22,151 nt of DNA from a virus (IMGVR_UViG_3300047497_000262:1-22151), one strand, 5' to 3'. Counted from the stretch's first letter, positions 5,215 through 19,362 are shown. The notes: generated from the letters alone by a model not told the origin. Translations and numbers: made by a program.

Positions 5215-5423
5215 TTGCTCCTCGCATCCGCAAGCTGTGTCGCCGTCTCCGGCGCCGTCCGGTTCACCGCATATCGATGGAAAACAGTTTCCACGGCTGC
5301 TCAGTTCACTTCTAATCACCTACTCCTCGCGATACTCGTACCATAACTACCTGTACGGAGAAAGGTTTTCGCCGCGCATACGCCTTCCGCTAGGCACACC
5401 CCTGCAATCCGGTCCACACATCC

Positions 5424-6096: not shown

Positions 6097-6780
6097 CTAC
6101 CTCTCGGCGTAACTTCTCCCACCCACGCGCGCCTCACTCGTTTGGCTCGCGCTCACCGCTCGCCCCGGGCCCAATCCGTGCTTCGCCGCCTTCTCCGCAT
6201 CCAGAATCGCCGCACAGTGTCTGCACACCGCCACGCCCGGCTTTACCTTTTCCCCGCACGCCGGGCAGTCGTTCATCCGCGTCGGTACATACGCCCACTC
6301 GCGCTCAAGCCCTAGCGCCAGCGCCGCGCGTCGGTGCAAATCCGAGATCTCGCGGAACGAATGCCCGCGAGCCCACATCACGTCCGCCTCTGTCACGAGC
6401 TTCTGGTGAAACGCTTCACACCGCCCTCGCGCCGCCGCCAGTTCCCTCTCAGTCGGTTCAGAGCTTGCGCACAAAAACACACCGTGATCCTGCAAGTTCT
6501 GCAGCAAGTCCTCTGCGATGTCGCGCGCTGCGATCAGGAACGGCATCCTGCGGTTGTCGCCCAGGTCGATAATGTCCTCGCGCGCCGTAATACGCATCGT
6601 CGTGAACGCTTGGCCTTTCGCACACGCTGGGATCTGGTAAACGCCGTGCGTCCGCGAGATGTACCAATCCTGGTCCGAGATCGACGCCACCACCGCCTCT
6701 CCACCCTCTTCGCGCTTTGACCTCGTGTCCACAATCACTTCCCTGCGCCCCGTCAACGCAGCCGCCTGCAATGTGCTCAT
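6097..6780 (-). CDS. Phage-cassette protein with C-terminal zinc ribbon
   Basis: This is a 227-aa cytoplasmic protein. The ATG at 6780 is chosen because AGGAG precedes it at a normal distance; a TTG-started form from 6831 is possible. The N-terminal two thirds are alpha/beta with no motif I recognise, including RITAREDIIDLGDNRRMPFL and a helical stretch around AARDIAEDLLQNL. The C-terminus has CPAC (Cys172, Cys175) and CRHC (Cys186, Cys189), a compact four-Cys zinc ribbon, followed by a basic, Ala-rich tail. It follows the 196-aa gene closely on the same strand, so the two are probably co-transcribed downstream of the capsid gene. Position after the capsid gene suggests a head-completion or DNA-associated role, but that is inference only. 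Confidence 0.75.
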   Translation of the reverse strand: MSTLQAAALTGRREVIVDTRSKREEGGEAVVASISDQDWYISRTHGVYQIPACAKGQAFTTMRITAREDIIDLGDNRRMPFLIAARDIAEDLLQNLQDHGVFLCASSEPTERELAAARGRCEAFHQKLVTEADVMWARGHSFREISDLHRRAALALGLEREWAYVPTRMNDCPACGEKVKPGVAVCRHCAAILDAEKAAKHGLGPGRAVSASQTSEARVGGRSYAER

Positions 6781-6834
6781 CCTCGCTCCTGACGCGAGCG
6801 TCAGAACTCCGTCTCGCGCGAATCCTTCCAACCA

Positions 6835-7425
6835 TTACACCGTCACAAAATCCTTTCCGCCAAATGCCGGCCCCGAATCACCCAGCAGATCGTCCGCCTT
6901 CGAATCCCATCTCTTCTCTCGCTCCGCTTCGCGCTGATCCAGCGCTGCACGCCGCGCGCGCCTCGTCTGTCCGTTCGACCACGCAACCGCCCTCACCACC
7001 CAATCGCACGCCGCTCCCGTCAGCGGCAAGAATTCCCCGAGCGCTCCACTCAACGTGAAGCAATGCTCGTAATCTCCCCGGGCTGGGTATGGCCCGAGTG
7101 AAAGCACCCGCACGCCGTCTTCAATTTCCGTCGTCAGCTCTCGCCACTCATCCGGCGTCCCGTAACTCGTCGCGGGCATCCATCTCTCGATGTGCCACCG
7201 ATTCTCCGGCAAGTACTTCGGCACGCGCCGAAGCTCGATCGCCTCGCGAATGAAATTCCCACTCGCGTCGTGGTCCACCCATCGCCCGCCGATCCAGCAC
7301 AGCCGCGATCCGCCCCATACCACGCGAAAATTCGGCTCGCCATACAAATTCCAGCCGCCGCTGCGCGCCACTCGCTCCTGCACGCTGTCCGGCGCCTCGT
7401 GTGTTTCCCGCGTGACTCGAATCAT
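6835..7425 (-). CDS. Hypothetical phage-cassette protein downstream of capsid
   Basis: This 196-aa soluble protein has no signal peptide or membrane segment. It is rich in Trp and Arg in its first half (GGWNLYGEPNFRVVWGG, WHIERW) and ends in a charged helical region (ARRAALDQREAEREKRWD) that may form a coiled coil. No family is recognised. The start at 7425 is ATG with only a weak GGGTGA upstream. It lies just past the capsid-gene terminator (7445-7480) and about 55 bases ahead of the start of the zinc-ribbon gene. Either it is reached by read-through past that terminator or it has its own promoter, which I could not identify. A connector or head-to-tail joining role would fit the position but is not shown by sequence. 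Confidence 0.75.
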   Translation of the reverse strand: MIRVTRETHEAPDSVQERVARSGGWNLYGEPNFRVVWGGSRLCWIGGRWVDHDASGNFIREAIELRRVPKYLPENRWHIERWMPATSYGTPDEWRELTTEIEDGVRVLSLGPYPARGDYEHCFTLSGALGEFLPLTGAACDWVVRAVAWSNGQTRRARRAALDQREAEREKRWDSKADDLLGDSGPAFGGKDFVTV

Positions 7426-7444
7426 TCACCCGCACCGTCCAAAC

Positions 7445-7480
7445 AAAAAAGGGACGGCTCGCACCTCGCAAGCCGTCCCC
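7445..7480 (-). terminator. Rho-independent terminator after capsid gene
   Basis: Read on the minus strand, a 9-bp perfect stem (GGGACGGCT/AGCCGTCCC, loop of 11) is followed directly by six T. It lies about 28 bases past the capsid stop codon and before the 196-aa gene, so it probably ends or attenuates a capsid-only message. Confidence 0.85.
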
Positions 7481-7507
7481 GTCAAGAGAGAACCCGATCC
7501 CCCGAGT

Positions 7508-8782
7508 CTAGTAGCCAGTCGGAATCGCTAAATTGTTGATGTAAGCTCCACTCCGCGGAGATTCGTTCCACACTTGGAATCCCGTCACGAAGTAGAAAAT
7601 GTAAGCCGAAGCGATGCCGCCGCTCGTTCCATAAATCGGAAACAGCGTCTGCCCGCCCACGTCGTAGAAATCGATGTCCTGCATCACCGCTCGTCCCCAA
7701 TGCGACAAGTCGAGGAAATCCACTCGTGTCTGGTTCGCATTGATCGACGACTTGATCGGCACGCCCGCCATCGACTTCTCGCCCGTGAACAGCAAATCCA
7801 GATCGCTCGCGCGGCCGCCCGCCCCTTCCTTAATGATCTGCGAAATCGTCACGCCGAGCTGTTCCCACTGATGTTCCTGCTCGAGTGACGTGTACGCGAT
7901 CAGCTTCGACACCTGATTCGAGCCCAACGCTTTGCGCACCTTGTTGATTGCCAGCCGTACTGCTCCCGGCGTGATCGCCGAGTTGTTTCCGTTTACGTTC
8001 GGCGTCGCCAGCTCCACTGGATACGTCGCCCGGTTGAGGTTGAGCCACGTCCCCGTCGTCGCATTCGTCTGGTGATACAAAATTCCGAAGAGCGAAGTCG
8101 GCTGCGGTCCCGTCAAGCCGTCGTGAACGATCAAATCGTTCACGCTCGTGCCCGCCGGCAGCGAATCCACTTGGATGAAAGAATTAAACGGATCCACCAG
8201 CACCACGTTCGCCGACCCGCGGTTCGTCGTCAGCGTCGGGTCGTACACTTGCACGGTTTGGTTGTAGTAGAAAAGCATCGCGCCCGGCGGCTTCGCCAGG
8301 CCAAACTGTGCTGCCACGCCCGACGGCAAGCCGGTCGTCGTGATCGAGCCCACCGTTCCGAGCACGCCGTTGCCGTTCGTCTGCATCACCTTGTCGAGAA
8401 ACGAGCGGAATTGGCCCATCGCGTTCTTCACTTCTCGCTTCGCCGCGTTCTCGATCGCTTTTTCCGGCGCGTTGCTGGCATATTCCACCAGCTTCGTCAT
8501 TTCCACCGCGTGCCGAAAAAATACCGGCGTCACCTGCGCCACGTCGTAGGTCGTCCCCGATCCGCGTCCCAGGTCGCCGCCATCCATGTTTGCCAATCCA
8601 GCCTTGCCGCCGGGACGAATCTGCAGCGGAAGCCGCATGTTTCGCGAGCTCACTCGCTCCACATCGCCGCGCTGCTGAATCATCGTCAATAAGATGTCGT
8701 CGCGCTCATACAGCAACGGCAGCTTGTCCCTCACCTTTTCCAATTGCAGCGCGACGGACTGCGCGTTTTGCATCTGCGCCAT
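7508..8782 (-). CDS. Major capsid protein (HK97-fold-like)
   Basis: This is a 424-aa protein preceded by an excellent AAGGAG site 9 bases before the ATG. The layout fits an HK97-type capsid: a helical N-terminal arm, a Gly-rich loop (RPGGKAGLANMDGGDLGRGSG, about 56-76) where the E-loop is expected, then a long spine-type helix (about 104-134, ENAAKREVKNAMGQFRSFLDKVM) ending in QTNGNGVLGTVG, which resembles the NGDG..GI turn seen in this fold. Later, YTSLEQEHQWEQLGVTISQI matches a P-domain helix region, and the chain ends in a beta-rich segment. It would assemble the icosahedral shell with the scaffold protein encoded upstream. Unlike most phages, capsid and scaffold genes are separated by an opposite-strand gene, and the capsid gene has its own terminator. 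The fold is assigned from pattern and context, not alignment. Confidence 0.8.
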   Translation of the reverse strand: MAQMQNAQSVALQLEKVRDKLPLLYERDDILLTMIQQRGDVERVSSRNMRLPLQIRPGGKAGLANMDGGDLGRGSGTTYDVAQVTPVFFRHAVEMTKLVEYASNAPEKAIENAAKREVKNAMGQFRSFLDKVMQTNGNGVLGTVGSITTTGLPSGVAAQFGLAKPPGAMLFYYNQTVQVYDPTLTTNRGSANVVLVDPFNSFIQVDSLPAGTSVNDLIVHDGLTGPQPTSLFGILYHQTNATTGTWLNLNRATYPVELATPNVNGNNSAITPGAVRLAINKVRKALGSNQVSKLIAYTSLEQEHQWEQLGVTISQIIKEGAGGRASDLDLLFTGEKSMAGVPIKSSINANQTRVDFLDLSHWGRAVMQDIDFYDVGGQTLFPIYGTSGGIASAYIFYFVTGFQVWNESPRSGAYINNLAIPTGY

Positions 8783-8861
8783 ATTTGAGATCTCCTTGTT
8801 GTGAACACACCCATGCCACCGCGCACGCCAGGCCCGTGCGCCCTCCTGCCTCTAAACCAAT

Positions 8862-9020
8862 TCAGAACTTGTACTTCGGCGTGACCTTCCGTTCTACCCA
8901 GCTACGTCCTGTACCGCTCTGCCGGCCCCGCTGTCCCTCTACCCCGTACAAACACTGCCCCTGGGTCCAGTTGAGTGCATACAGAAAATCCTGCATGCTG
9001 TCTTCGCACCACAGCCGCAT
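8862..9020 (-). CDS. Small ORF (52 aa) upstream of capsid gene
   Basis: A short frame starts with ATG at 9020, directly after an in-frame TAG, and ends with TGA at 8862. The product begins MRLWCEDSMQDFLYALNW and ends WVERKVTPKYKF. The composition (four aromatic residues in the first 18, a mixed charged and aromatic C-terminus) looks like a real protein rather than the Arg/Ala-rich noise of shadow frames nearby. No strong ribosome site precedes either Met1 or Met9. It lies 79 bases ahead of the capsid start on the same strand, where phages often encode small decoration or accessory head proteins. It could also be the remnant of a longer gene broken by the TAG. Confidence 0.45.
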   Translation of the reverse strand: MRLWCEDSMQDFLYALNWTQGQCLYGVEGQRGRQSGTGRSWVERKVTPKYKF

Positions 9021-9130
9021 CTAGAACTGCAGAAGCCCCTGCTGTTTGTGAAAATTCGTAGTGTGTGACCGGCCTGCGCCCCCTCCCGCGTGCGCCTGTC
9101 GCGATTTCCTGGACCCCGGGAGGTTCGGCC

Positions 9131-9841
9131 ATGTTTTCCAAGAAGTCTGCACTTTTCGTTCTTTCATTTTTTCTAGCGGCAGTCTTCTGCGCCACATCGA
9201 CCCAAGCCCAAACGCCTTCCAATTGCAAAGCCTCACAGGCGGATGCCGTTGAATGCTTCGTCGCCAACGCCGTTTCCACGGGCCTTGCAAAACCAACCCA
9301 CGGAATGACGCTCGCTCAATATGAACAGTATGGCGTCGCAGTGAATTCGATTCTTCAGACCAACCACACTTACATCGTTCTGCTCGGCCTCTCGAGCGCC
9401 ATCGCCGATGCCATGCCGCCGACCAATGCCAACGGCTCAGCGAACACCTCGGCTCAAGGCGCGGCCATCGGAGCGATAGTCACGGCCGCCGTCGCCGACC
9501 ATCTCATCAGCCTTCCCTCGGGTGTTAGCGTTACGCAGCTCCAATATTTCTGCATGGACATCGTCTCCGCCATGAACGACAACAATGGCTACCTCGCCCT
9601 TCTTACTCCAGGCGTCAGCTTCCGCATGGTCGACTCCTATCTGATCTCATCCACCATCAACGGCACCGTAAACTGGACGGACGTGAACACCGGCCTGGCC
9701 GCCGCCGTCGGCAATCTCATCAAGTCTGGCCTGATCAAAGTTCCATCCGGCGTCACCGCCCAGGACATCGAGTGGTTCTCCGACGCGATGGCCAAAGCCA
9801 TCTACAACTACAAAACGTCCACCAACCGCAAAACTCTCTAA
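9131..9841 (+). CDS. Secreted protein of unknown function
   Basis: This is a 236-aa exported protein. The ATG at 9131 is preceded by GGGAGG at 8 bases and opens a clean Sec signal peptide (MFSKK, then a hydrophobic core, cleavage near TQA-Q at residue 26); an earlier in-frame start at 9065 would spoil it. The mature part is largely helical, with three or four Cys, and includes repeated-looking units with LPSGVSVTQLQYF and VPSGVTAQDIEWF, suggesting an internal duplication of a roughly 90-residue helical unit. No family is recognised. It is a lone plus-strand gene inside the phage cassette, between the capsid side and the scaffold gene, and REP-like hairpins follow it. Its C-rich plus-strand coding bias matches the other host-type genes. 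Confidence 0.75.
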   Translation: MFSKKSALFVLSFFLAAVFCATSTQAQTPSNCKASQADAVECFVANAVSTGLAKPTHGMTLAQYEQYGVAVNSILQTNHTYIVLLGLSSAIADAMPPTNANGSANTSAQGAAIGAIVTAAVADHLISLPSGVSVTQLQYFCMDIVSAMNDNNGYLALLTPGVSFRMVDSYLISSTINGTVNWTDVNTGLAAAVGNLIKSGLIKVPSGVTAQDIEWFSDAMAKAIYNYKTSTNRKTL

Positions 9842-9866
9842 TCACCGCCTTACGCCCTACGGGAGC

Positions 9867-9942
9867 GCGGTGGCTTGCCACCGCTATCGGCACCGCCGCC
9901 ACTCCGGCGCAACGCAATCGAACCGGCCGAAGGCCGGTCGCG
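9867..9942. repeat. REP-like double hairpin between secreted-protein and scaffold genes
   Basis: Two strong stem-loops lie 37 bases apart. The first is an 8-bp perfect stem GCGGTGGC/GCCACCGC with a TT loop (9867-9884); the second is ACCGGCC/GGCCGGT with a GAA loop (9922-9938), followed by CGCG. The order of two hairpins and the GGTCGCG ending recall the REP pairs at 12445 and 18605, but the stems differ. There is no T tract, so this is not a standard terminator, though it lies between two convergent genes. Confidence 0.55.
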
Positions 9943-9970
9943 CACTCAACACTTGCGTGTCGAGACTCTC

Positions 9971-9992
9971 GTGGCCATAGGCATGTCCTGTG
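9971..9992. repeat. Diverged REP-like single hairpin
   Basis: A GTGG head is followed by CATAGG, CATGT and CCTGTG, a 6-bp stem with one G-T wobble. It resembles the copy at 15094-15118 with three bases missing, so I read it as a diverged member of the same family. Confidence 0.4.
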
Positions 9993-10035
9993 ATCGCTCC
10001 GCCCTCAACAGGCTGCTGCATCGCCCTAGGATCCT

Positions 10036-11118
10036 TCACAAATTCAAAATATCCGCATCCGACATCCTTCCATAATCAATGTCCTTGCTCGTCGTCGCCC
10101 GCCGCTGCCCTGTCGCTCCGCCGCCAGTTCCCGCAATATCCACTCGTCTCTCCGCGTTCCGCTGCCGCGCTCGCCGCTCTTCGTTCAGCGTCACCACCGT
10201 GCCCGTCCACTCGTTCATCACTCGCTTCGCCACGGTCGGCAAAGACTGCTTCGCCCGCGCAGTGATCAACCCCACGAATGCACGCTGGTGCTCCGCATCA
10301 AACCGTCCGCTGCGCGCCGACTGCAAAAGTTGTTGCGTCAGCACACGATTCCCTCGGAGCGCCGTATCCAACTCCCGATAGATTTCCCCCACCAGCCGAT
10401 TCCGCGAAGCCTTTCCAATCCCATCTGGCAAAAGTTTCGCCACTTGCGTCTCGATCTCTTCCACCACGCTTTGCACCGCCGCCGCGTTCGCACCCTGCAA
10501 AAAATCCCGCTGCGCCGCGCCCGCATCCGCCTTGGCCTGTGCAGGATCCGTTTCAACTCGCGCATTTGGAGCTGCGTCGGAAAGGTCCGGACGGTCGTCC
10601 TTCTCACCCCTGTCCGCCGGCCGCCCAGCCAGCTCTGCCATCGACCGTGCCAGCGATGCGAATGCCTCCCGATCCATCGCCGCTACCGCTCGCGCCAACT
10701 CCGCGTGATCCTCAGGATTCTTCGAAAAGAAGAGCGTATCCAGCCTCGAAACCTCGGCCGCCCGTTCGCGCGCCTGCCGCGCCTCACTCGGCGTCGCAAA
10801 AATTTCGCGATACTCTTCCACATCCTTCACCGCGTTCGCGGTCTGCCCGCCTCCGTCCGCAGGCTCATCGGAACTCGCCTCGTCACCCGAAGCGCTGGCG
10901 CTCCGATCCCCCAACTCGTCCGCGAATCCCGTCGCGTCCGATGCCGCGCCGTCGCGTGTGACGTTCTTCGAGGCATTTCTCGAAGTGTCGATTCCAAGAA
11001 TCTCGTCATCGCTTGGCCGCGCCACAGGCACAGGTGGGCGCGCCGCCGGCGCCGCCACTCCCGCAGTGCTGTCACCCCCACTCACCGGCCCTGTCGTCGC
11101 CGTCACATGCCCCGCCAT
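10036..11118 (-). CDS. Scaffold-like phage head protein
   Basis: This is a 360-aa, very hydrophilic, Ala/Asp/Glu/Arg-rich protein with no signal peptide. Residues 1-100 are Pro, Ala, Ser and Asp rich and probably disordered; from about 100 the chain is almost entirely helical and charged (EEYREIFATPSEARQARERA and onward), with likely coiled coils, ending in a short DIDYGRMSDADILNL tail. This composition and the place between portal and capsid genes fit a scaffolding protein that guides procapsid assembly and then leaves. No Ser/His/Asp protease signature is visible, so it is not an obvious protease-scaffold fusion. The ATG at 11118 has GGAGG about 8 bases upstream. It is convergent with the secreted-protein gene and divergent from the PilZ-receiver gene, so it must be transcribed alone or from a nearby promoter that I could not identify. 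Confidence 0.7.
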   Translation of the reverse strand: MAGHVTATTGPVSGGDSTAGVAAPAARPPVPVARPSDDEILGIDTSRNASKNVTRDGAASDATGFADELGDRSASASGDEASSDEPADGGGQTANAVKDVEEYREIFATPSEARQARERAAEVSRLDTLFFSKNPEDHAELARAVAAMDREAFASLARSMAELAGRPADRGEKDDRPDLSDAAPNARVETDPAQAKADAGAAQRDFLQGANAAAVQSVVEEIETQVAKLLPDGIGKASRNRLVGEIYRELDTALRGNRVLTQQLLQSARSGRFDAEHQRAFVGLITARAKQSLPTVAKRVMNEWTGTVVTLNEERRARQRNAERRVDIAGTGGGATGQRRATTSKDIDYGRMSDADILNL

Positions 11119-11427
11119 CGTCTCGCCTCCGATACTCCCCAGCCGTATTTCACCGAATCTTCACCTCGGGCAAACCTGCACCGAAACGGCCGTTCGCCTT
11201 TCCTCTGAGTATCAACTCTGTTAACTTTCGGCGCATTCCCACAAACCTCACCGCGTCAGCGCCTTACGGCCCCTCAAAAGCTCGCCCATCTTTCGTTTGG
11301 GAAATTGAACCGTCCGTACTATTCCCGCCCGCGCATCCTCACTCTAAATTTACAGGTAGCGGGGGGAGCTGTTCCGCGGTGCAGTTGCAAACGGTCAGCC
11401 CGCAATACCAGCACCTGAGGTGCAGTA
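11119..11427. other. Divergent intergenic region, scaffold / PilZ-receiver
   Basis: These 309 bases separate two divergent genes and should hold promoters for both. I see no convincing sigma70 pair on either strand. There are AT-richer stretches near 11210-11235 (with GTTAAC) and 11340-11352. Apart from the 13-base palindrome at 11411-11423 I find no ORF, repeat or RNA gene that I can support. Confidence 0.5.
11411..11423 (+). promoter_or_regulatory. Palindrome covering the PilZ-receiver ribosome binding site
   Basis: The sequence GCACCT-G-AGGTGC is a perfect 6-bp inverted repeat around a single base, and its right arm is the Shine-Dalgarno sequence (GAGGTG) of the gene starting at 11428. 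It could be a protein-binding operator; a 1-base loop is too tight for a stable RNA hairpin with all six pairs. Chance cannot be excluded. Confidence 0.35.
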
Positions 11428-12306
11428 ATGAGTTCATCGTCCAACGTCGCCACCGAAACCAGTTCACTTCCACTCGACGCCAAAGCCTCCCAATCGATCG
11501 GCGTTCCCGAAGAGCGTCGTACGCGCCGCCGCGCCAAAATCACAGCCTCGGTTCACGTTCGCGGCCTGGACGCTCCTGAGTCCTTCGAAGAAGTCTGCAA
11601 GTCCATCGATGTCTCTCGCGACGGACTCCTGATCCAGGTCGCCCGCTCTGGCTATTACAAAGGCCAGCAGCTCGAAGTCACGTTTCCGTATTCGCCGGCC
11701 GCGGCCGCCTCCACGAAGACGCCCGGTCAGCGCGCCGAAGTCGTTCGTGTTACCGAAGTCTCCAACGGCCACTTCCAAATCGCCGTGCATTTCGCCTCAT
11801 CCAAGCCGGCCGGCCCACGTTCCGAGAATGGCAATCGACTCGGTTCCACTCCCAGTTCGGCGCCTCAAAACGCGCCGCAGACTGTCGTCCTCGGCGTCGA
11901 ATCCGATCCGAAAGTGGCTGAGATCATGCGCACCATTCTCACCAACGACGGCTACACCGTCCTCATCGTTCCCTCGGCCCAGGAAGCGCTCGACATTTTG
12001 CGCACCACCGTCCCGGCCGTCTTTATCGCCGAAGTCGAAGGCCCGGAGATGAGTGGACACGATCTTTGCCTGATCGTGAAGCGCAATGACCGCCTCAGCC
12101 GCGTTCCCGTCATTCTCGTTACTGCTTCGGCTCAGCCTGCCGACTACAGCGCAAGCCACCAAATGGGCGCCGTTGTCTGCATGGCCAAGCCCTTCAAGCC
12201 GGAGCGCCTGTTGCACGTCGTGCGCTTGGTCGCGCCGCCGCCGCAATTGCGCTCGCCGTATCAAACCGCGCGCCTCAACGGCACGGCCGTCGAACGCACC
12301 CTGTAG
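11428..12306 (+). CDS. PilZ domain plus receiver-like domain regulator with Glu at the phospho-site
   Basis: This is a 292-aa cytoplasmic protein. Residues about 28-123 form a PilZ domain with both c-di-GMP motifs: the Arg cluster RTRRR (31-35) and DVSRDG (61-66), followed by the beta-barrel strands ending QIAVHF. A Ser/Pro linker leads to a CheY-like receiver domain (about 151-268). Aligning its EVEGPEMSG with the usual D-x-x-MPxMDG puts Glu202 where the phosphorylated Asp should be. The switch Thr232 (LVTAS) and Lys254 (AKPF) are kept, and the acidic pocket is E158/D160. So it is probably a c-di-GMP-binding protein with a non-phosphorylatable, possibly locked-on, receiver. No output or kinase domain is present. 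GAGGTG precedes the ATG and a strong terminator follows (12357-12404), so it is a single-gene unit, oriented against the flanking phage genes. Confidence 0.85.
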   Translation: MSSSSNVATETSSLPLDAKASQSIGVPEERRTRRRAKITASVHVRGLDAPESFEEVCKSIDVSRDGLLIQVARSGYYKGQQLEVTFPYSPAAAASTKTPGQRAEVVRVTEVSNGHFQIAVHFASSKPAGPRSENGNRLGSTPSSAPQNAPQTVVLGVESDPKVAEIMRTILTNDGYTVLIVPSAQEALDILRTTVPAVFIAEVEGPEMSGHDLCLIVKRNDRLSRVPVILVTASAQPADYSASHQMGAVVCMAKPFKPERLLHVVRLVAPPPQLRSPYQTARLNGTAVERTL

Positions 12307-12356
12307 TCTCAGCGCCTCGCGCATTCTCGGCGCTCGACTCACGATCTTGCATCACC

Positions 12357-12404
12357 GCGGCGAAGTTCGCAGATGACCCCTGCGTTCTTCGCCGCTTTTC
12401 TTTT
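12357..12404 (+). terminator. Rho-independent terminator of PilZ-receiver gene
   Basis: A 9-bp stem GCGGCGAAG/CTTCGCCGC, with a further CGCAG/CTGCG pairing inside, is followed by TTTTCTTTT on the plus strand. It starts 50 bases past the stop codon. Confidence 0.85.
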
Positions 12405-12444
12405 CCGCCTTTCCGCCACCCCCGCATTCACTCACGCATCTTCA

Positions 12445-12496
12445 GTAGCACAGGCAATCCTGCCTGTGCGCGACCGCCTTCAGTCGGTCGCGTTTT
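12445..12496 (+). repeat. REP-like double hairpin, GTAG-headed
   Basis: GTAG is followed by hairpin 1 (CACAGGC, loop AATCCT, GCCTGTG) and hairpin 2 (CGCGACCG, loop CCTTCAGT, CGGTCGCG) and TTTT. It is the same length as the copy at 18605-18656 and differs from it at 5 of 52 positions, four of which form two compensating base-pair changes. GTAG plus hairpin is the known form of REP sequences mobilised by RAYT (TnpA_REP) transposases. It lies between the convergent PilZ-receiver and portal genes. Confidence 0.8.
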
Positions 12497-12523
12497 GACT
12501 TCGCCTCCCCACCCATTTCCGCC

Positions 12524-14959
12524 TCACCCTCTCTTCGTCCCGCTCGCCGCCACTCCCGCCTGTGCCATCGTCTGCTGCTTCAGCAAATACTCCCGATGAA
12601 ACATCGCATGCGCCCTCACGTTCGCGTACCCCAGCGGGCTTTCAATCTTCGCCACCTGCCCCGCATCCGACGAAAACCACCGCATGCAAATCTCCAGCTC
12701 CACCTGGTGATTGTCCGCGAACTCATCCGGTAACACGCTCGGCAAAATCACATCCGCCTCGCTCGCCGTCCCCGTCAGGTGCGTCACGTCCTGCGTCCGC
12801 ACCACCGGCGCTTCCGCCACGAGCTGCGCGATCTCCCGGTACTGCTTGTTCCGCGACTCTTCGTCCGGAATCACAAACTCTTCCAGCCCCAGCAGCCGCT
12901 TAATGAGCGCCATGTTCTCTGGATGTGCCAGCACCGTCTGCATCTGCGGGTCGGGGCTTCCCATCATCTGCATCAGCACGGCACGCTGCTGGCTCCAGAG
13001 CGTCGGATACTGCTCATCCGTCTCCGGATAACTGAAAAGATTTCCCTTCAGATCCGCCAGCCGAATCCACTTCGATTCGAACGCCGACCCAGCGCCCAAC
13101 AGCGTTACTTCCACGTCGTGCGGCCTGTTTTTTCGGAAACAATCCACCGCCAGCAGCATGATGTCCGCGTGGAAGAATTTCATCCTGCGCCACACCAGCC
13201 CAATCCGCCCCATTGCCTGCTCGCGCGCCATCGCGTAGCCGGACGCCGTATCGTTGTTGCTCATCGCTCCGCCAAACAACGCCGGAAACGCGCCCGTCAA
13301 AAATTGCGAGATCGGCCCCATCAAATCCGCCGCGTGCTCGCTCAGGTCGCCCGGCACTTCCGCCGGCTCGGGCTGGAAAAATCCGCTGGCCAGGCTCTGT
13401 CCTGGTTTCGCACGCGCCGGATAATGCGATCCCGGCTCGGCCGTCTGATTCTGCAGCGAATCGAAGTCCAGCACTTCGCTGTCCGCGTAAATCGGCGGAA
13501 TGCCGTACTCATACGTTTCCATCTGCAAATTCGAAAGCGTATTGAACCGCTCCTGCACGCTGATCATGGAATCGCCCAGCGCCGGTCGTCCGCTTGACCC
13601 ATCGCCCGGCAATGCGTGCAGCACCCGCCAGTGATCGTCCATATTCTCGTTACGCGCTTCGCAGTAAACGTCTCCCGCAAACGCCACATACGCGCCATCC
13701 GGAAACAGTTCCAGCAGCTCGTCGCGCAGCGCCTTATCGTCCAGCGCGAAAAACGCCCATGGCCGCAGCCACGTCCGCTGAAACGTGATCAGGTTGATGT
13801 TGAAGTCGCCGCCTTCCGTCAGCGGTCCTCCCTGCGACTGCGCCAGTCGCGCCAGCCGCTCGTACTCCTGCCCGCCGCTCGCCACCGGCGCCCCAATTCG
13901 ATCCGCCGCATGTGGGTACGCGGCTCGCAGTCGCGCCTGGTGCACTTCCATGTTCCACTGCAGATACGGATACTCATGCATTTCGTCGGCCCAGGGCGGC
14001 GTTTTCAGCGCCAACCCGCCCACGATCGTTACCACTTCCTGCCCATTCGGAACTCGCGCCCGAGTCTGCGCTTCCGGCACCGCGAGCGTTTCCGCCGCTA
14101 CAAAATCTTCTTCCGTCAGCAATGCCCCGCACGCGTCGCAATTCCGCGTCGCGATCTCCGCCGCCGCGGCCACGTCCGCGCCGCCCGTCGCAACCGGCGT
14201 ATTCGTGCCTTTCAAATCACTCTGCGGATTTTCCTTCCCGCATTCCGGGCACACATACACATCCGTGCCCAACTTCACCGACCTCATCCCAATTTCCGTT
14301 TCGGGATGGAATCCGAATCTTTGCCCGTCCACCACGTACCGCACGTACGCGCCCACCTTCCCGTCCGTCCAAAGGTTGAACGCCTCCTCCACAATCAAAT
14401 TCCCAATCCGGTTATTCCGCTCCACGAGCTGCGCCACTTCCATCGCCGCCTTCGCCGCGCTCACATCCTCTTCCGCCTGCGCCGACGAAGGGAAAAATCG
14501 CACTCGCGGCACATCCTGCGAAAGCACCGCCACCAGCGAAAGCCCAAACGCCTGGTAGATATTCGTCACGAACTCGTACCGCGGCAAATCCTCAAGCGAT
14601 GAGTTGTCCGTCAGTTTCTGCTCAAACGGCAAATGCCAGTTCTGGTCCCTCTCGTTCCACCACAGATACTGCAGCCCGCGCCAGAATTGGTGCGCCTGCT
14701 TGATCCGTCGCACCTCTTGTCGCCGGGTCGATTCCGATTCCGTCGAATACTGGTGCACCAGCCTCCGCATCGCCGCCTGCAAACGCTCGGGCAATTGCTC
14801 GTTGTTCGCGCCGTACGCTGAGTTGCCGACGCGAACGCTCGCGTTCGCGTCGCCGCATCCCCGACCGCGTTCCGTGCGCTCCACAGGCTGCCCCGCCACC
14901 GGTCCTTCCACTGCAACAATCGCCGGATCCGCCGTCACCCCGTTGTTCCGCGTCGGCAT
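12524..14959 (-). CDS. Phage portal protein with inserted zinc ribbon
   Basis: This is an 811-aa soluble protein from the ATG at 14959. Its size, its place between terminase and scaffold/capsid genes, and its mix of helical and beta segments fit the large podovirus-type (P22-like) portal, the dodecameric ring through which DNA is packaged. The helical stretch RRQEVRRIKQAHQFWRGLQY starts the conserved-looking part. An insertion carries CPEC (Cys237, Cys240) and CDAC (Cys274, Cys277), a zinc ribbon with a 33-residue low-complexity loop, which is unusual for a portal. The C-terminal third (LWSQQRAVLMQMMGSPDPQ onward) is helical like a portal stem/crown. The start is uncertain: no good ribosome site precedes 14959, the first 60 residues look unconserved and contain a DNA palindrome, and an ATG at 14770 with AGGCGG nearby is an alternative. 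Confidence 0.8.
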   Translation of the reverse strand: MPTRNNGVTADPAIVAVEGPVAGQPVERTERGRGCGDANASVRVGNSAYGANNEQLPERLQAAMRRLVHQYSTESESTRRQEVRRIKQAHQFWRGLQYLWWNERDQNWHLPFEQKLTDNSSLEDLPRYEFVTNIYQAFGLSLVAVLSQDVPRVRFFPSSAQAEEDVSAAKAAMEVAQLVERNNRIGNLIVEEAFNLWTDGKVGAYVRYVVDGQRFGFHPETEIGMRSVKLGTDVYVCPECGKENPQSDLKGTNTPVATGGADVAAAAEIATRNCDACGALLTEEDFVAAETLAVPEAQTRARVPNGQEVVTIVGGLALKTPPWADEMHEYPYLQWNMEVHQARLRAAYPHAADRIGAPVASGGQEYERLARLAQSQGGPLTEGGDFNINLITFQRTWLRPWAFFALDDKALRDELLELFPDGAYVAFAGDVYCEARNENMDDHWRVLHALPGDGSSGRPALGDSMISVQERFNTLSNLQMETYEYGIPPIYADSEVLDFDSLQNQTAEPGSHYPARAKPGQSLASGFFQPEPAEVPGDLSEHAADLMGPISQFLTGAFPALFGGAMSNNDTASGYAMAREQAMGRIGLVWRRMKFFHADIMLLAVDCFRKNRPHDVEVTLLGAGSAFESKWIRLADLKGNLFSYPETDEQYPTLWSQQRAVLMQMMGSPDPQMQTVLAHPENMALIKRLLGLEEFVIPDEESRNKQYREIAQLVAEAPVVRTQDVTHLTGTASEADVILPSVLPDEFADNHQVELEICMRWFSSDAGQVAKIESPLGYANVRAHAMFHREYLLKQQTMAQAGVAASGTKRG
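14828..14851. repeat. Perfect 10-bp inverted repeat in the portal N-terminal coding region
   Basis: GACGCGAACG and its exact reverse complement CGTTCGCGTC are separated by four bases. It falls in the poorly conserved-looking start of the portal frame and encodes part of DANASVR. Its role is unknown; it may lie upstream of the true start codon. Confidence 0.7.
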
Positions 14960-15252
14960 ATTTGCGCACACCAATCCCTTTAAATTAGTTCTGCTTTTAA
15001 CTTTTGTTCTGGAATCGCCGTCGTCACAGCCCAGCGTCACTCGCTACCGCAATCTCAATCCATCCGGCACCCAACAAAAATCCCGGAGCCTTGGTGGCAC
15101 AGGCATGTCCGGCCTGTGTCCGGTCCACGCTTTTGCCGCCCGCGTCACTTTGCCGCCGCGCCTCGTCGCTCTGCGTTGCGATGCTCGCGCTCTCGTATCC
15201 TGAGGCTTTGTTCTTTTGCCGTTCACTATCCGCGAGTCACCCGCGAACTTCC
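14960..15252. other. Intergenic region upstream of the portal gene
   Basis: These 293 bases between the 345-aa gene and the portal gene hold an AT-rich patch (about 14975-15010) that could house a minus-strand promoter, though no clear pair of boxes is visible, and the single REP-like hairpin at 15094-15118. A 70-aa minus-strand frame overlaps the end of the 345-aa gene but runs straight through the repeat and looks like noise. Confidence 0.5.
15094..15118 (+). repeat. REP-like single hairpin, GTGG-headed
   Basis: GTGG is followed by CACAGGC, loop ATGTCCG and GCCTGTG, the same 7-bp stem as hairpin 1 at 12445. The second hairpin is missing, so this is a half element. Confidence 0.7.
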
Positions 15253-16290
15253 TCACCTCACCTCCACATCCCCCTCGCCCCGCAAAATCGCATCGACAAT
15301 CTTTTCCCCGCCGTCCGTCACGCTGAACCCAAAGTTACAATTCTCAAATCGCACATTCTTCATGCTCACTGGCCCGCGCTCATACCTCACGCGCGTCCCC
15401 ACAAACGTAACATCGTTCCAAATAATTCCATCCAGCGTCTGCGCCGCCCCCGCGATCGTCAATCCAGTCACCTTCACGTCGTCAGCCATCTCTCTCGATG
15501 CCGGCGGCAAGAAAACTTCCGACGCCCCGGGCATCCGTGTCGCGTCCACAAAACTCCCGCCCAGCGTTGTTGGGTTCAAGTTCTGCTTGGCGCTCACCGC
15601 CTTCGGCGCTTCTAGGATCACGCGCTTCCGCCCGCCATCCGCACCACTTGGCCCCGCCGCTTCCGTGTCGTCGCGCTTCGGTTCTGCCGCGCCCGCGATA
15701 GCAGTATCAGTCCCCGCCGTTCCCATCGATACGCGCAACTCCGCCAGCGCGATCTTCGTCTGGAAAATATGCTCCCGCAGTCGGTCGCTATCCGGATGCA
15801 TGTCTCGAATCGCGTTGAGTTCGCGCAGCGCCGTCGTAAAAAATTCTGCCGCCGCATCGAACTTCCTGGGCCGTGCCGACTCCAAGATCGCCGTCGCCCG
15901 GTCCGCTGCCTCTTCCGCGCCGGTCACATCGCCGCCCTTGCTCAGCTCGTTCGCGACACTCGCTGCATTCTCAAAATCGCCTTCCCACCGTCGCGCAACA
16001 GTTTCGCTCGAGCTCCGCACGCCCCCACACGGCCGGTCCACCACCGCAACTTCCCCGGCGCCCTTCTGCTGCTCCGGATGCTCATATCGCTGCGCCGCCT
16101 GCCATCCCAGCGTCCCCACCAACACCAGCGCCAGCAGAATCACCACGTACCGCAACCATTTCCCCAGCGCATCTTCGCGGTCGGGCTTGTAGCTCGACGC
16201 CTTCCGCCGCCGCACGCGCACACTCCCGCGGTCGCCTCCGCTCGCTCCCCAATTCTCGCCGCCACTGCTCACTGCTTCACTCTCCACCAC
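15253..16290 (-). CDS. Single-pass membrane protein of unknown function within the head cassette
   Basis: This is a 345-aa protein starting at GTG (16290, or GTG at 16287) with no clear ribosome site; the first 40 residues are Ser/Gly and then Arg/Lys rich. A strong transmembrane helix at about 45-63 (LRYVVILLALVLVGTLGW) would anchor it with the basic N-terminus inside and the rest in the periplasm. Residues about 95-200 are helical and tetratricopeptide-like in feel (NAASVANELSKGGDVTGAEE, AAAEFFTTALRELNAIRD). The C-terminal part (VKVTGLTIAGAAQ, GIIWNDVTFVGTRVRY, MKNVRFENCNFGF) has the regular spacing of a short beta-solenoid. No family is recognised. A membrane protein between packaging and portal genes is unusual; it may be a host gene captured in the same orientation, or an anchor for assembly at the membrane. 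Confidence 0.7.
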   Translation of the reverse strand: MVESEAVSSGGENWGASGGDRGSVRVRRRKASSYKPDREDALGKWLRYVVILLALVLVGTLGWQAAQRYEHPEQQKGAGEVAVVDRPCGGVRSSSETVARRWEGDFENAASVANELSKGGDVTGAEEAADRATAILESARPRKFDAAAEFFTTALRELNAIRDMHPDSDRLREHIFQTKIALAELRVSMGTAGTDTAIAGAAEPKRDDTEAAGPSGADGGRKRVILEAPKAVSAKQNLNPTTLGGSFVDATRMPGASEVFLPPASREMADDVKVTGLTIAGAAQTLDGIIWNDVTFVGTRVRYERGPVSMKNVRFENCNFGFSVTDGGEKIVDAILRGEGDVEVR

Positions 16291-16357
16291 CGCGCCAAAT
16301 TCTACCGGATTCTCACCGCCCTCGCGCCCGAAGATAGCCTGCCGCTCCGCCAGCCTT

Positions 16358-16714
16358 TCACTCTCCGCCCAAGGCCCCGCTTACGAAATCCGCCACGTCG
16401 CGATGGTTCGTGAACACATGCGTCTCCGGCCGACCCTCCGCCTTTGACGGCAACCCACTCGCCCGCGCACCACTGGCTGCTCGATGCGCATGCACCACGA
16501 AGCCACTCCGCGCCCTTCCACAATGCGCCGGCACCACCTCCGTCGCCTCAATCACAAGCCGATGCACAGCCCCCTTTCCTACTTCCCGCCCCGCACCACC
16601 AATCAATTCCTCGTCAGAGGCAGCCCCGTCATCATCGGTCGCCGCCGCCCGCGCGTTCTCCACGCCCTTGCCGTACCCCGGGTTTGCATAGAACTTCCCG
16701 CCGATAAAAGGCAT
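16358..16714 (-). CDS. Hypothetical small phage-cassette protein
   Basis: This is a 118-aa soluble protein with a strong GGAGGAAGGG site directly before the ATG. It begins MPFIGGKFYANPGYGKGVE, has an acidic Ala/Asp linker (ATDDDGAASDEEL), then a probable beta domain (VHRLVIEATEVVP, SGFVVHAHRA) and ends with ETHVFTNHRDVADFVSGAL. No signal peptide or membrane segment is present and no family is recognised. It lies between the coiled-coil gene and the 345-aa gene in the packaging cluster, so a minor head or packaging accessory role is a guess from position. A REP-like element sits 12 bases upstream of its start codon, just outside its ribosome site. Confidence 0.7.
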   Translation of the reverse strand: MPFIGGKFYANPGYGKGVENARAAATDDDGAASDEELIGGAGREVGKGAVHRLVIEATEVVPAHCGRARSGFVVHAHRAASGARASGLPSKAEGRPETHVFTNHRDVADFVSGALGGE

Positions 16715-16726
16715 GCCCTTCCTCCA

Positions 16727-16774
16727 GTGGTACAGGCATTCGTGCCTGTGCGCCCCCGAATGTCAGTCGGGGGC
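16727..16774 (+). repeat. REP-like double hairpin, GTGG-headed variant
   Basis: Hairpin 1 is ACAGGC, loop ATTCGT, GCCTGT; hairpin 2 is GCCCCCGA, loop ATGTCAG, TCGGGGGC. Compared with the copies at 12445 and 18605, hairpin 2 has changed at two stem positions on both arms, keeping full pairing, while the loop keeps TCAG. This paired change argues that the fold, not the sequence, is preserved. Confidence 0.75.
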
Positions 16775-16807
16775 CGGTTATACGATCTCCATATCAGCGC
16801 CAACCGC

Positions 16808-17143
16808 TTAAATTTCCTCACTCGCCGGCTTCACTCGCGCCGCGTCAATCTCAAGCATCCGGTTCACCTGGTGCCACGAGCGCCGCCGCAGTGGCGTCAC
16901 GTCGTTCTTGACCGCGCTCGCCTCTCGCTTCCTCTTCGCCGCAGCCACGGTGCTCTCCACATCCACAGGGAGAGCCGCAGCGCTCTCCGAAGAAACCGTC
17001 ACCGGCGGAACTCCCGCAATCCCCAGGATCGAATTCATCAGCGCGCGATTTTCTGCGCGCAGCCGCGTAACCTCTCTCTCCAGCTCGCGCCGCCTCCCCG
17101 CCACGGCGCCGCGCACAGCCTCGAGAAAATCTCGCCACCGCAT
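16808..17143 (-). CDS. Small coiled-coil protein following the large terminase
   Basis: This is a 111-aa protein from the ATG at 17143, which has AAGG 8 bases upstream; a GTG at 17149, overlapping the terminase stop as GTGA, would add two residues. The first 45 residues are a basic helix with a leucine-heptad look (RRRELEREVTRLRAENRALM), likely a coiled coil, followed by a hydrophobic turn (ILGIAGVPPV), a disordered Ala/Ser/Val linker and a basic C-terminal helix. It is tightly coupled to the terminase gene, so it probably serves the packaging machine or head, but no family is recognised. Confidence 0.7.
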   Translation of the reverse strand: MRWRDFLEAVRGAVAGRRRELEREVTRLRAENRALMNSILGIAGVPPVTVSSESAAALPVDVESTVAAAKRKREASAVKNDVTPLRRRSWHQVNRMLEIDAARVKPASEEI

Positions 17144-17145
17144 AC

Positions 17146-18594
17146 TCACCGCCTTTTCCTCACAAACCGCACCGGCTTCGCCGCCGACGTCTCCACCAGC
17201 CTCGCTGCCTTCACCTGCATCGCGCGCACTGTTGGATCTACCGACGTCACACGCTCCGCAATGCGCTGCTCGATCGGCGGCCGAACCGTCCCATTTCGCT
17301 CCGCCGAATACCGCGTCTTGATCCCGTACCGCGCCGCATCCGCCGCGTCGTCCCCATCCATCTTCGACACATCCTCAACTCTCGCCGGATCGCGCAGCAA
17401 TGTTGGCAACACGCGTACCAACTCCGTGCAGTTGCTCGTAATCGTCCACTCGTCCGCAGCGAGCATCTGGTACATCAACATCCATCCGCCTACGCGATCG
17501 TTGTCCGCCGGCGTCGGCCTCGGCAACCCCGCGCTCGCAAACACGTCGCCCATCTGCTCCGCGATGGACGCTTCATCCGTCCGCCGCGCGAACGCATCCG
17601 GCGAAAGATAAATCGCATCGATCTTCTCGCGCCCATCCGCACCGGCACATCGCTCCGCAATCTCTCTGGCCAGTTCCCGCGGCGCCGTGCGATGCGTCAC
17701 ATACTCGCGATAGGTCGCCACCCGTCCGCGTCCATCCGATCCGCCGTCGCCAATCGTTCGACTATGCCAGTACGCCGCCGCCGGATGCTCGAATCCCCAG
17801 TCCACCGAAATCCATCGCGGCCACCACGTCTGCCAGGCAATCTCTTCCGCGCGCCGCACGTTCTGCGAAATATCAAACCGGTCGAAATACTGCCCCGCGA
17901 ACACATCCCAGTTCCCGTCCAAAAATGCCCGTTTCAAGTCCCCTGGCAGCGCCGCCAGTGTCCGCTTATAATTTTCATCCTTCGCATAAACCGGATTGTC
18001 CTCCAGCCGCGCCTGCACAAATTCATAGTCGCTCGCGCAATACTCTTCCGGACGTTCCATCCCCGGCGCCGGCTCTCGCGTCACCCACAGCGCCTTCACC
18101 CACGCATGTCCAATGTTGCCGGGATTCGTTGCGCCCGCCATGCACGGAATCGCGCCCGCAACCGGGCACCGGTTTCTGCTAGTCAAGAATTGCCACTGCC
18201 TCAACGTGAAATGCGTCAGCTCATCGATCCCGATAAACAAAAACTCCGCACCCTGATACTGGTAAACGTCCCTCTCGTTCGCGCAATACCCAAACCGAGT
18301 CGTCGATCCGTTGTGCCACGTCACCACATGTTTCGACTCGTTATAGCTCCGGTACAACTCCCGCGGCACATCCCTCCGAAAGTAATGCAGCAGAGACGCG
18401 TCCAGCTCTGGAAACGTCCTCCGCAACAGCAACGAATGGGCACCAGGAATTTCCAGCGCCTGCAGCACCCCCTCCATCAACAACGCCTTCGTCTTCCCCG
18501 GCCCCGCCGCCCCTCCAAAAAGCCGGTACTTGGCCCGCGAACGATGAAACTGCTCCTGCCTCGGGAACGGTCTATATCCCAACTCAACTTTCAC
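17146..18594 (-). CDS. terL: Phage terminase large subunit (packaging ATPase-nuclease)
   Basis: This 482-aa protein has the full two-domain plan. In the ATPase domain: Walker A GGAAGPGKT (27-35), an Arg-rich strand (LLLRRTFPEL), Walker B FLFIGIDE (118-125, catalytic Glu125) and coupling motif GATNPGN (154-160). The RNase-H-like nuclease domain has its three acidic sites: Asp265 in SVDWGFEHP, Asp333 in SPDAF and Asp415/Asp416 in MDGDDAADAARYG. It pumps DNA into the procapsid through the portal and cuts it. All catalytic residues are present, so the gene is not visibly decayed. The start is GTG with only a weak GGGCGA upstream, and a REP element begins 10 bases before it (18605). The last bases overlap or abut the coiled-coil gene. 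Confidence 0.93.
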   Translation of the reverse strand: MKVELGYRPFPRQEQFHRSRAKYRLFGGAAGPGKTKALLMEGVLQALEIPGAHSLLLRRTFPELDASLLHYFRRDVPRELYRSYNESKHVVTWHNGSTTRFGYCANERDVYQYQGAEFLFIGIDELTHFTLRQWQFLTSRNRCPVAGAIPCMAGATNPGNIGHAWVKALWVTREPAPGMERPEEYCASDYEFVQARLEDNPVYAKDENYKRTLAALPGDLKRAFLDGNWDVFAGQYFDRFDISQNVRRAEEIAWQTWWPRWISVDWGFEHPAAAYWHSRTIGDGGSDGRGRVATYREYVTHRTAPRELAREIAERCAGADGREKIDAIYLSPDAFARRTDEASIAEQMGDVFASAGLPRPTPADNDRVGGWMLMYQMLAADEWTITSNCTELVRVLPTLLRDPARVEDVSKMDGDDAADAARYGIKTRYSAERNGTVRPPIEQRIAERVTSVDPTVRAMQVKAARLVETSAAKPVRFVRKRR

Positions 18595-18604
18595 TCGCCC
18601 ATCC

Positions 18605-18656
18605 GTAGCACGGACAATCTTGTCCGTGCGCGACCGCCTTCAGTCGGTCGCGTTTT
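18605..18656 (+). repeat. REP-like double hairpin abutting the terminase start
   Basis: GTAG is followed by hairpin 1 (CACGGAC, loop AATCTT, GTCCGTG) and hairpin 2 (CGCGACCG, loop CCTTCAGT, CGGTCGCG) and TTTT. Hairpin 2 is identical to that at 12445. Hairpin 1 differs by two compensated base pairs. On the terminase mRNA the fold would lie immediately upstream of the GTG start codon. Confidence 0.8.
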
Positions 18657-18677
18657 GACCTTGTCGTATGCCCTTAA

Positions 18678-18690
18678 GTACAGGCAATCT
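18678..18690 (+). repeat. Truncated REP-like arm
   Basis: GTACAGGCAATCT matches the first arm and loop of the neighbouring REP-like hairpins, but the matching 3' arm is absent. It lies 21 bases from the complete copy and may be a fragment. Confidence 0.35.
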
Positions 18691-18756
18691 CGAGAGCTTC
18701 ATCCGCGAGCCCCGGCAGCCTTTGCCTTTGTTTCCGTCTCCCTCCGCATGCAACCT

Positions 18757-18921
18757 CTATACCAGCGTCCGAATCTTCTCCCCCACGTAGTACGCCGCCG
18801 CCCCTCCCAAGAACGTCGCCGCCACCGCGATGTGATGAATGCTCAGTATTCCGCCGATCACGAACGCACCCAGCCCGCACGCCTGCACGATGTATCCCAC
18901 CGTCGTCTTGCTCGCGCTCAT
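18757..18921 (-). CDS. 54-aa two-helix membrane protein between terminase genes
   Basis: This short gene starts at ATG 18921 with a perfect GGAGGAGG site upstream, and its ATG overlaps the stop of the previous gene as ATGA, so the two are translationally coupled. The protein begins MSASKTTVGYIVQ and has two hydrophobic segments, ACGLGAFVIGGILSI and HIAVAATFLGGAAAYYVG, separated by His-His, then a short basic tail (EKIRTLV). Two short helices in a tiny protein fit a class II-like holin or a small membrane peptide, but holins usually sit beside an endolysin, and none is seen here. The function is therefore open. Confidence 0.75.
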   Translation of the reverse strand: MSASKTTVGYIVQACGLGAFVIGGILSIHHIAVAATFLGGAAAYYVGEKIRTLV

Positions 18922-19271
18922 CTGTCCTCCTCCACGAATTCAAAACCAATCTGCCTCGATTCCCCTTGCTGCCTCTCCCGCGCCGGACGCGCCACGTGAT
19001 GCACCAGCTCCACCACCGGCCCGCCATCCTCTCCATCGCAAACTCGTTCCCGCAGCTCCACCGGAGCGCCCAGATGCCGAGCCCACTCCTTCATCGCATC
19101 CAGCCACAATTTCCCGAAGCTCACCTCTTCCTTTTTCTCGCTCATTCGCTTTAGCAACCCGTCGAACTCCTGCGCGTAACGGTCCTCGCCAAGTCCCGCC
19201 GCCCGCAATGCATCGCGCAGCCCCATCGCACCCGCCTCTCGATCGCCGGCACTCTGCCGCACCGTTTTCAT
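18918..19271 (-). CDS. Candidate terminase small subunit
   Basis: This is a 117-aa soluble protein. The ATG at 19271 has GGAG about 7 bases upstream; an upstream in-frame start at 19292 lacks one. It is mostly helical: an N-terminal helix pair (MGLRDALRAAGLGEDRYAQ, EFDGLLKRM), a Lys/Glu-rich turn (SEKKEEV) and FGKLWLDAMKEWARHLGA, followed by a charged tail. This size and the pattern of a DNA-binding-like helical head before an oligomerisation helix, together with its place before the large terminase, fit a small terminase subunit that recognises phage DNA. The assignment leans on context; there is no diagnostic motif. Its stop codon overlaps the start of the 54-aa membrane protein. Confidence 0.6.
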   Translation of the reverse strand: MKTVRQSAGDREAGAMGLRDALRAAGLGEDRYAQEFDGLLKRMSEKKEEVSFGKLWLDAMKEWARHLGAPVELRERVCDGEDGGPVVELVHHVARPARERQQGESRQIGFEFVEEDR

Positions 19272-19362
19272 TCGCGCTCCACCTAAGAACAAATCGGCGC
19301 CGCAAAAAACGGCGCAGGACGCACGTCCACCAGGGTTGGTCCGAGCCCTCCTAAGAGTGGCG

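Follow-up and report, generated by a model that had tools for sequence, protein, structure and literature searches.

Gene content of the window

The stretch of DNA analysed here (the window) is the complete IMG/VR record IMGVR_UViG_3300047497_000262:1-22151, a fragment of 22151 bases that ends in the middle of a gene cluster. All of its core particle genes lie on the minus strand and are full length and stop-free in an ORF check, and they comprise a small terminase candidate, the large terminase subunit (TerL), three small or membrane proteins, a portal candidate, a scaffold candidate and a putative capsid protein, which are followed on the same strand by two conserved post-capsid proteins and a 1491-aa protein of predicted pectate-lyase fold. 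Four plus-strand genes, for a PilZ-receiver protein, a secreted protein, a PEP-CTERM protein and a RidA protein, lie between the particle genes. No tRNA was found in the 22151-base window, which is laid out as follows (G, related genomes; L, loci).

21165-22151, minus: conserved upstream gene, 328 aa, Gly-rich secreted protein; touches the window edge; no Pfam match; homologue upstream of the cluster in G031, G033 and L005
20306-20704, minus: small protein opening the cluster, 132 aa; same place in most relatives, 44-81% identity
19779-20303, minus: conserved small secreted protein of the leading group; no Pfam match; homologues in G031, G467 and G464
18918-19292, minus: small terminase candidate, 124 aa; precedes TerL; homologues in G031, G478, G490, G024, G033, G027 and G029
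17146-18594, minus: TerL, 482 aa; PHROG 979, Pfam Terminase_6N; conserved motifs
16808-17149, minus: conserved small protein after TerL; homologues in most relatives
16358-16714, minus: conserved small protein; homologues in nearer relatives
15253-16290, minus: conserved membrane protein before the portal candidate, 345 aa; no Pfam or PHROG family match; homologues in nearer relatives
12524-15040, minus: portal candidate with zinc-ribbon insert, 838 aa; position, length and an invariant core in 17 sequences
11428-12306, plus: embedded host-like gene, PilZ plus response-regulator receiver by Pfam; intact in G498 and G499, where capsid genes are decayed
10036-11118, minus: scaffold candidate, 360 aa; fills the portal-capsid interval in nearly all relatives
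9065-9841, plus: embedded host-like gene, secreted protein; same place in G031, L005 and G490; intact in the decayed G498 locus
7508-8782, minus: putative major capsid protein, 424 aa; PHROG 14242; 54-95% identity over 19 relatives
6835-7425, minus: conserved post-capsid protein, 196 aa; in intact relatives including those of other orders
6097-6831, minus: conserved protein with C-terminal zinc ribbon, 244 aa; Zn_ribbon_3 at E=4e-5, under the curated cut-off; in relatives including those of other orders
5424-5975, plus: embedded host-like gene, PEP-CTERM secreted protein with PEP-CTERM motif; homologue at the same place in L078
844-5319, minus: tail spike or fibre candidate, pectate-lyase fold, 1491 aa; Pfam and PHROG matches
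387-782, minus: small membrane protein between the spike and adaptor positions, holin-like by place only; no Pfam match; homologues in L002 and L011
43-363, plus: embedded host-like gene, RidA family (Pfam Ribonuc_L-PSP, E=1e-16); same place in G031 and L078; intact in the decayed G498 and G499 loci

The gene at 17146-18594 is identified from its sequence with certainty as TerL, matching PHROG 979 at E=2e-38 and also Pfam Terminase_6N in profile searches, and its Walker A, Walker B and nuclease-type motifs are retained in 23 relatives, which bears out the original prediction that the terminase keeps its ATPase and nuclease residues. Between the ATPase and nuclease parts there is a linker insert (residues ~280-314) whose length is highly variable among relatives, and the TerL open frames of the relatives run from 482 to 766 aa. 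The major head protein (7508-8782) matches PHROG 14242 at E=1e-4 and a distant relative reaches 1.6e-8, so that the assignment of the window's own protein is a modest one, with the same family matched by distant relatives. A predicted structure of the capsid protein (mean pLDDT 44; fold matches with TM <0.4) was set aside as too weak.

No convincing family match was obtained for the portal candidate, the best being the head-tail adaptor family PHROG 332 (E=0.008, in three of 17 relatives), and the scaffold (10036-11118) and small terminase (18918-19292) candidates gave zero matches in Pfam and PHROG. The putative roles of these three proteins are drawn from position and gene order, length and conservation. 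Hence the capsid and packaging module in canonical order, as predicted, stands as regards the ORFs, their order, TerL and the capsid protein, and is provisional for the portal, scaffold and small terminase. Profile searches of the PDB returned only zinc fingers for the portal candidate and nothing usable for the capsid, nozzle and adaptor proteins, comparison of the portal and adaptor with phage proteins at E up to 10 gave noise only, and among 50,697 phage records there were no relatives of the capsid or portal proteins. The insert in the portal candidate is zinc-ribbon-like, with paired CxxC motifs and variable length, which is an unusual feature in a portal.

The minus-strand protein at 844-5319 is a candidate tail spike (Pfam Pect-lyase_RHGA_epim, E=9e-12; PHROG tail fibre, E=0.002). 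It evolves fast, with 61% identity in G031, and the G467 group has instead a different spike of 1100-1450 aa that has the N-terminal domain (QGSRKDD-type) in common. In the joined chromosomal loci of relatives the cluster continues beyond window base 1. There an adaptor-like protein of 240 aa, which matches the structural proteins of PHROG 399 (best E=6e-4), is followed by a small protein and by a nozzle-like protein of 790-1000 aa, which matches the virion structural proteins of PHROG 3287 (E=8e-9 to 9e-8). Further on, an acetyltransferase-like protein and an Ala/Gln-rich protein precede a transglycosylase, which matches Pfam SLT at E=3e-11. The adaptor and nozzle roles are putative. A structure model of the nozzle-like protein (mean pLDDT 51; fold matches with TM <0.4) was too weak to use, and its fold list held a few phage tail proteins (SU10, Pa223 and VP1) among many unrelated beta proteins.

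Since the record is only 22151 bases long and the cluster of relatives goes on beyond base 1, the absence of other tail and lysis genes from the window is an edge effect. The suggestion that tail genes lie outside the window was thus correct, with adaptor-like, nozzle-like and transglycosylase genes past base 1 in relatives, and the accompanying claim that no tail or lysis genes are visible was made for an interval that leaves out the spike candidate. The unknown genes said to take the place of the missing ones include some on the opposite strand (PilZ-receiver, PEP-CTERM and RidA) that look host-derived. Neither a tape measure nor a tail tube was recognised in the window or in the continued cluster of relatives, and for this reason the cluster layout, judged by gene order, appears to be podovirus-like.

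Chromosomal site and inheritance in related genomes

Searches with TerL and the capsid protein yielded about 60 IMG/VR contigs, and a portal search of genomes yielded 17 Acidobacteriota MAGs, several of which are named Candidatus Acidiferrales; the order of the carrier genomes is likely Acidiferrales. Across the phylum the capsid query matched in only 2 of 396 genomes, and within the order to which G031 belongs 45 of 95 genomes have the capsid gene and 52 of 95 the portal, with fragments counted, where absences are soft because the genomes are mostly MAGs of uncertain completeness. Almost every genome of this order has a single locus; second partial copies in two MAGs (G506 and G477) may be assembly redundancy.

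The capsid gene and a gene for NAD+ synthetase (query taken from the G031 flank) are on one contig, convergent and 16-28 kb apart, in 14 genomes (G031, G490, G459, G464, G467, G474, G443, G481, G507, G506, G452, G469, G444 and G470), a count that covers same-contig cases, with contigs of many other genomes breaking off within the cluster. This linkage spans the tree from the G031 clade to the deep-branching G481, and on the opposite flank the better-sampled family has genes for ParA, ParB, thioredoxin reductase and a MOSC protein. The exceptions are G478, with the synthetase 128 kb away, and the G032 clade, in which the cluster is located elsewhere and reordered. Hence the cluster is not strictly immobile, having been relocated or reordered in the G478 and G032 clades. 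In relatives it has a length of 25-32 kb and is endogenised, lying within chromosomal contigs of 309 kb, 624 kb and 1.6 Mb with housekeeping genes on both sides, and in seven genomes its G+C content is at most 2.5 points from that of the flanks, which range from 55 to 64%. The chromosomal setting of the window itself is presumed from these nearest relatives.

A tree of the capsid, portal and TerL proteins from 23 genomes has 14 of 20 splits in common with the rpoB tree, compared with at most three in label permutations (n=2000), and the Mantel rho is 0.86, or 0.91 without two long-branched genomes (G466 was left out of the congruence test). Conflicts are mostly inside families or at the deepest, long branches. 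The cluster has therefore co-diversified with its host, with the G032-clade TerL and the relocation in two clades as exceptions, and the host-independent phylogeny of a temperate prophage is not what is seen, as the trees are congruent and the site is orthologous. Pairwise dN/dS values, from a rough Nei-Gojobori calculation, were 0.02-0.11 for the capsid, 0.05-0.13 for TerL and 0.08-0.32 for the portal, and those of the scaffold and post-capsid proteins were higher; the frames ran from stop to stop, so upstream non-coding codons inflate changes slightly. No PF00589 tyrosine integrase was found inside the cluster in 11 genomes, and the nearest on the same contig is about 23 kb or more away and of XerC/D-like length, so that the integrase in or beside the element that marks a temperate prophage was not found with this profile. 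Among the cluster ORFs scanned, a subset of the cluster, no replication or repressor genes were recognised.

The TerL proteins of G032, G038 and L046 have a different Walker A motif, GGAMGGGKS, and that of G481 has GGSRGGGKS. The G032-clade TerL is on a separate long branch, although the capsid protein there is 81% identical to that of the window, and its sequence suggests that it was probably replaced from another lineage. On that basis gene exchange with phages would have occurred.

Decay at the site and more distant relatives

Decayed scraps of the cluster are present at the same site in G446, G451, G457, G458, G460, G462, G472, G475, G498 and G499. By large internal deletion, the first ~210 portal residues of G460 and G475 run directly into the Ala/Gln-rich gene, with TerL still intact in G475. 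The capsid gene of G498, which groups with G031 by rpoB, is down to 32 residues (97% identity) and only scraps of portal, scaffold, spike and nozzle persist, next to intact genes for the PilZ-receiver, RidA and secreted proteins and a further opposite-strand gene (s26). The picture in G499 resembles that in G498. Smaller scraps lie between the MOSC and NAD synthetase genes of G446, G451, G457, G458, G462 and G472, and none were found at the site in G445, G461, G465, G480 and G484. Because the scraps are at the orthologous site, much of the order must descend from a carrier of the cluster, which was lost many times, and as the cluster is missing or decayed in about half of the genomes of the order, it is dispensable. 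The idea of an eroding prophage thus fails for the intact copy in the window and holds for the decay in about ten related genomes.

The deletion junctions in G460 (L146:9406-10468) and G475 (L147:1008-1988) are very similar in genomes that are not rpoB sisters, and either shared ancestry or the spread of a deleted allele by recombination could account for the likeness. The embedded genes are intact where particle genes are shredded and hence are host-owned and independent of the particle genes. A role of the PilZ-receiver protein as a particle regulator was rejected as the simplest reading, as the gene is intact in genomes without particle genes; PADLOC gave only a receiver-domain match for it.

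All of the approximately 60 IMG/VR records (loci L002-L071) are classed as viral. At least some of them are probably pieces of chromosome with the cluster on them, and some IMG/VR contigs with cluster genes could be viral genomes. Chromosomal flank genes occur in none of these records, partly since they are short, and 0 of 21 IMG/VR relatives are rated at least 90% complete. Relatives in other orders have the same core set in a compact form; G680, G701, G674, G757, G751 and G723 are among the other-order genomes. One of these (G723, L196) has an integrase gene (C49:2766-3272) about 7 kb from TerL and is possibly a true prophage of the same lineage, of which live phages may exist. The single-contig 6.24 Mb genome G680 of the class has the core set spread over about 35 kb (L188, L189 and L206); should it come from an isolate, it would lend itself well to experimental tests.

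A proposed gene transfer agent and its alternatives

We propose that the window is part of a vertically inherited, caudovirus-derived cluster that is kept by selection, has been repeatedly lost, and is most likely a gene transfer agent, a reading to which we give a probability of roughly two in three. It draws on the fixed place, the match to the host tree, the purifying selection, the intact terminase motifs and the lack of integration genes, and in one order of soil Acidobacteria the particle genes appear to have stayed at a fixed chromosomal place and to have been inherited for a very long time. Such a chromosomal cluster in Acidobacteriota would encode terminase, portal, scaffold, capsid, post-capsid proteins, spike, adaptor, nozzle and transglycosylase, would have lost its own integration genes or never had them, and would be retained by purifying selection. 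From the protein families and the layout we infer that a few cells would make short-tailed particles, that the terminase would load the heads with host DNA, that the transglycosylase and the holin-like protein would open the cell, and that the particle would pass DNA to kin with the spike serving in recognition. The more specific version, in which a podovirus-like gene transfer agent of independent origin was present in the ancestor of the order, anchored between parAB and NAD synthetase, and is retained in about half of the lineages with decay in the others, we regard as slightly favoured by the evidence. The original prediction had listed a capsid-forming element akin to gene transfer agents among its possibilities, and this is the one best supported by fixed-locus inheritance, purifying selection and tree congruence, with the checks it called for (extension, conserved position and dN/dS), carried out on relatives, favouring the same reading.

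An ordinary temperate podovirus, whose prophages sit at one preferred site and whose integrase or regulators were not recognised, would explain the full particle gene set, the compact clusters in other orders, of which one has a neighbouring integrase gene, and the listing of about 60 contigs as viral by IMG/VR. It is rather unlikely given that 11 genomes have no tyrosine integrase in or beside the cluster, that no replication gene was recognised among the genes scanned, that the cluster tree is congruent with the host tree and the site is the same from close to deep relatives, and that there are ten decayed copies at the site and host genes embedded between the particle genes. All of the evidence for domestication fits equally well with a vertically inherited particle that has another job and does not spread genes, for example a PBSX-type particle used in killing or defence, or a delivery shell, and the fast-changing spike and scaffold could then reflect conflict with a target. 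We consider this decidedly unlikely, as a DNA-free device would not need the terminase motifs that are intact over the order, but the rival hardest to tell apart by sequence is a PBSX-like particle that kills and also packages host DNA.

The origin of the record in IMG/VR, and the lack of a chromosomal flank gene in it and in its IMG/VR relatives, would suit part of the genome of a lytic or extrachromosomal Acidobacteriota virus. This is highly improbable, however, since the nearest relatives in the tree include chromosomal MAG contigs, one of 309 kb with the cluster inside, the RidA, PEP-CTERM and PilZ-receiver genes are embedded, and none of the 21 rated IMG/VR relatives reaches 90% completeness. 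A decaying prophage as the source of the window is scarcely credible, even though sister genomes commonly hold decayed copies and opposite-strand genes interrupt the module, because the core ORFs here are full length and stop-free, pairwise dN/dS is far below 1, and the interrupting genes are conserved in intact relatives. A capsid-forming satellite (cfPICI) was also provisionally set aside, as tail-like genes are present and no integrase was seen.

Acidobacteria are among the most abundant bacteria of soil. If the gene transfer agent reading is true, this would be the first such agent in Acidobacteriota, with its fragments filed as viruses by public databases; the open full-text literature, of which coverage is incomplete, yielded no report of such an agent for Acidobacteria, Acidobacteriota or Acidiferrales. 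Because the orthologous site occurs with the cluster whole, half deleted or shredded, a gene transfer agent is easier here to distinguish from a prophage. Host-owned genes can be entered as viruses in viral catalogues, and the case identifies genomes in which particle production is testable.

Comparison with known systems

Gene transfer agents have been defined by six features, in which tailed-phage-like particles are made from tailed-phage-derived proteins, mostly random host DNA is packaged, the agent's own genome is not fully packageable, the DNA is delivered to other cells, the genes are fully endogenised, often at several loci, and inheritance is mostly vertical with host co-diversification (PMC9662315). 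In the present cluster TerL and the capsid protein are recognised by profile as phage-derived. The sequence families that these belong to are the PHROG 979 and PHROG 2 terminases and the PHROG 14242 head proteins, the latter likeness being faint at E=1e-4 for the window's own capsid protein. The acidobacterial prophage clusters 140 and 153 (Eichorst et al. 2018, PMC5900883) are similarly prophage-like with capsid, TerL and portal, but they are described as prophages of cultivated subdivisions, for example in Granulicella and Terriglobus, and are set apart here by that description.

FpGTA of Faecalibacterium is likewise a candidate outside the Alphaproteobacteria and, in a 2026 report, was called the first such element of podovirus-like morphology (PMC12946183). 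It differs in belonging to the Firmicutes, in having operons of 10.5 kb and 5.5 kb and in having long-read evidence of packaging (PMC12946183).

The cluster is set apart from RcGTA by the other phylum and by the host-type genes mixed into it. RcGTA is siphovirus-like and has a tape measure, and the particles of the Bartonella GTA and Brachyspira VSH-1/BhGTA, which have other gene sets and are of other phyla, are known experimentally. With RcGTA and the RcGTA-like agents of Alphaproteobacteria (Rhodogtaviriformidae) the present cluster has in common a chromosomal head-tail cluster, vertical inheritance and co-divergence with the host, and it is like the Bartonella and Brachyspira agents in that these are independent exaptations of tailed phages that co-diversify with their hosts (PMC9662315).
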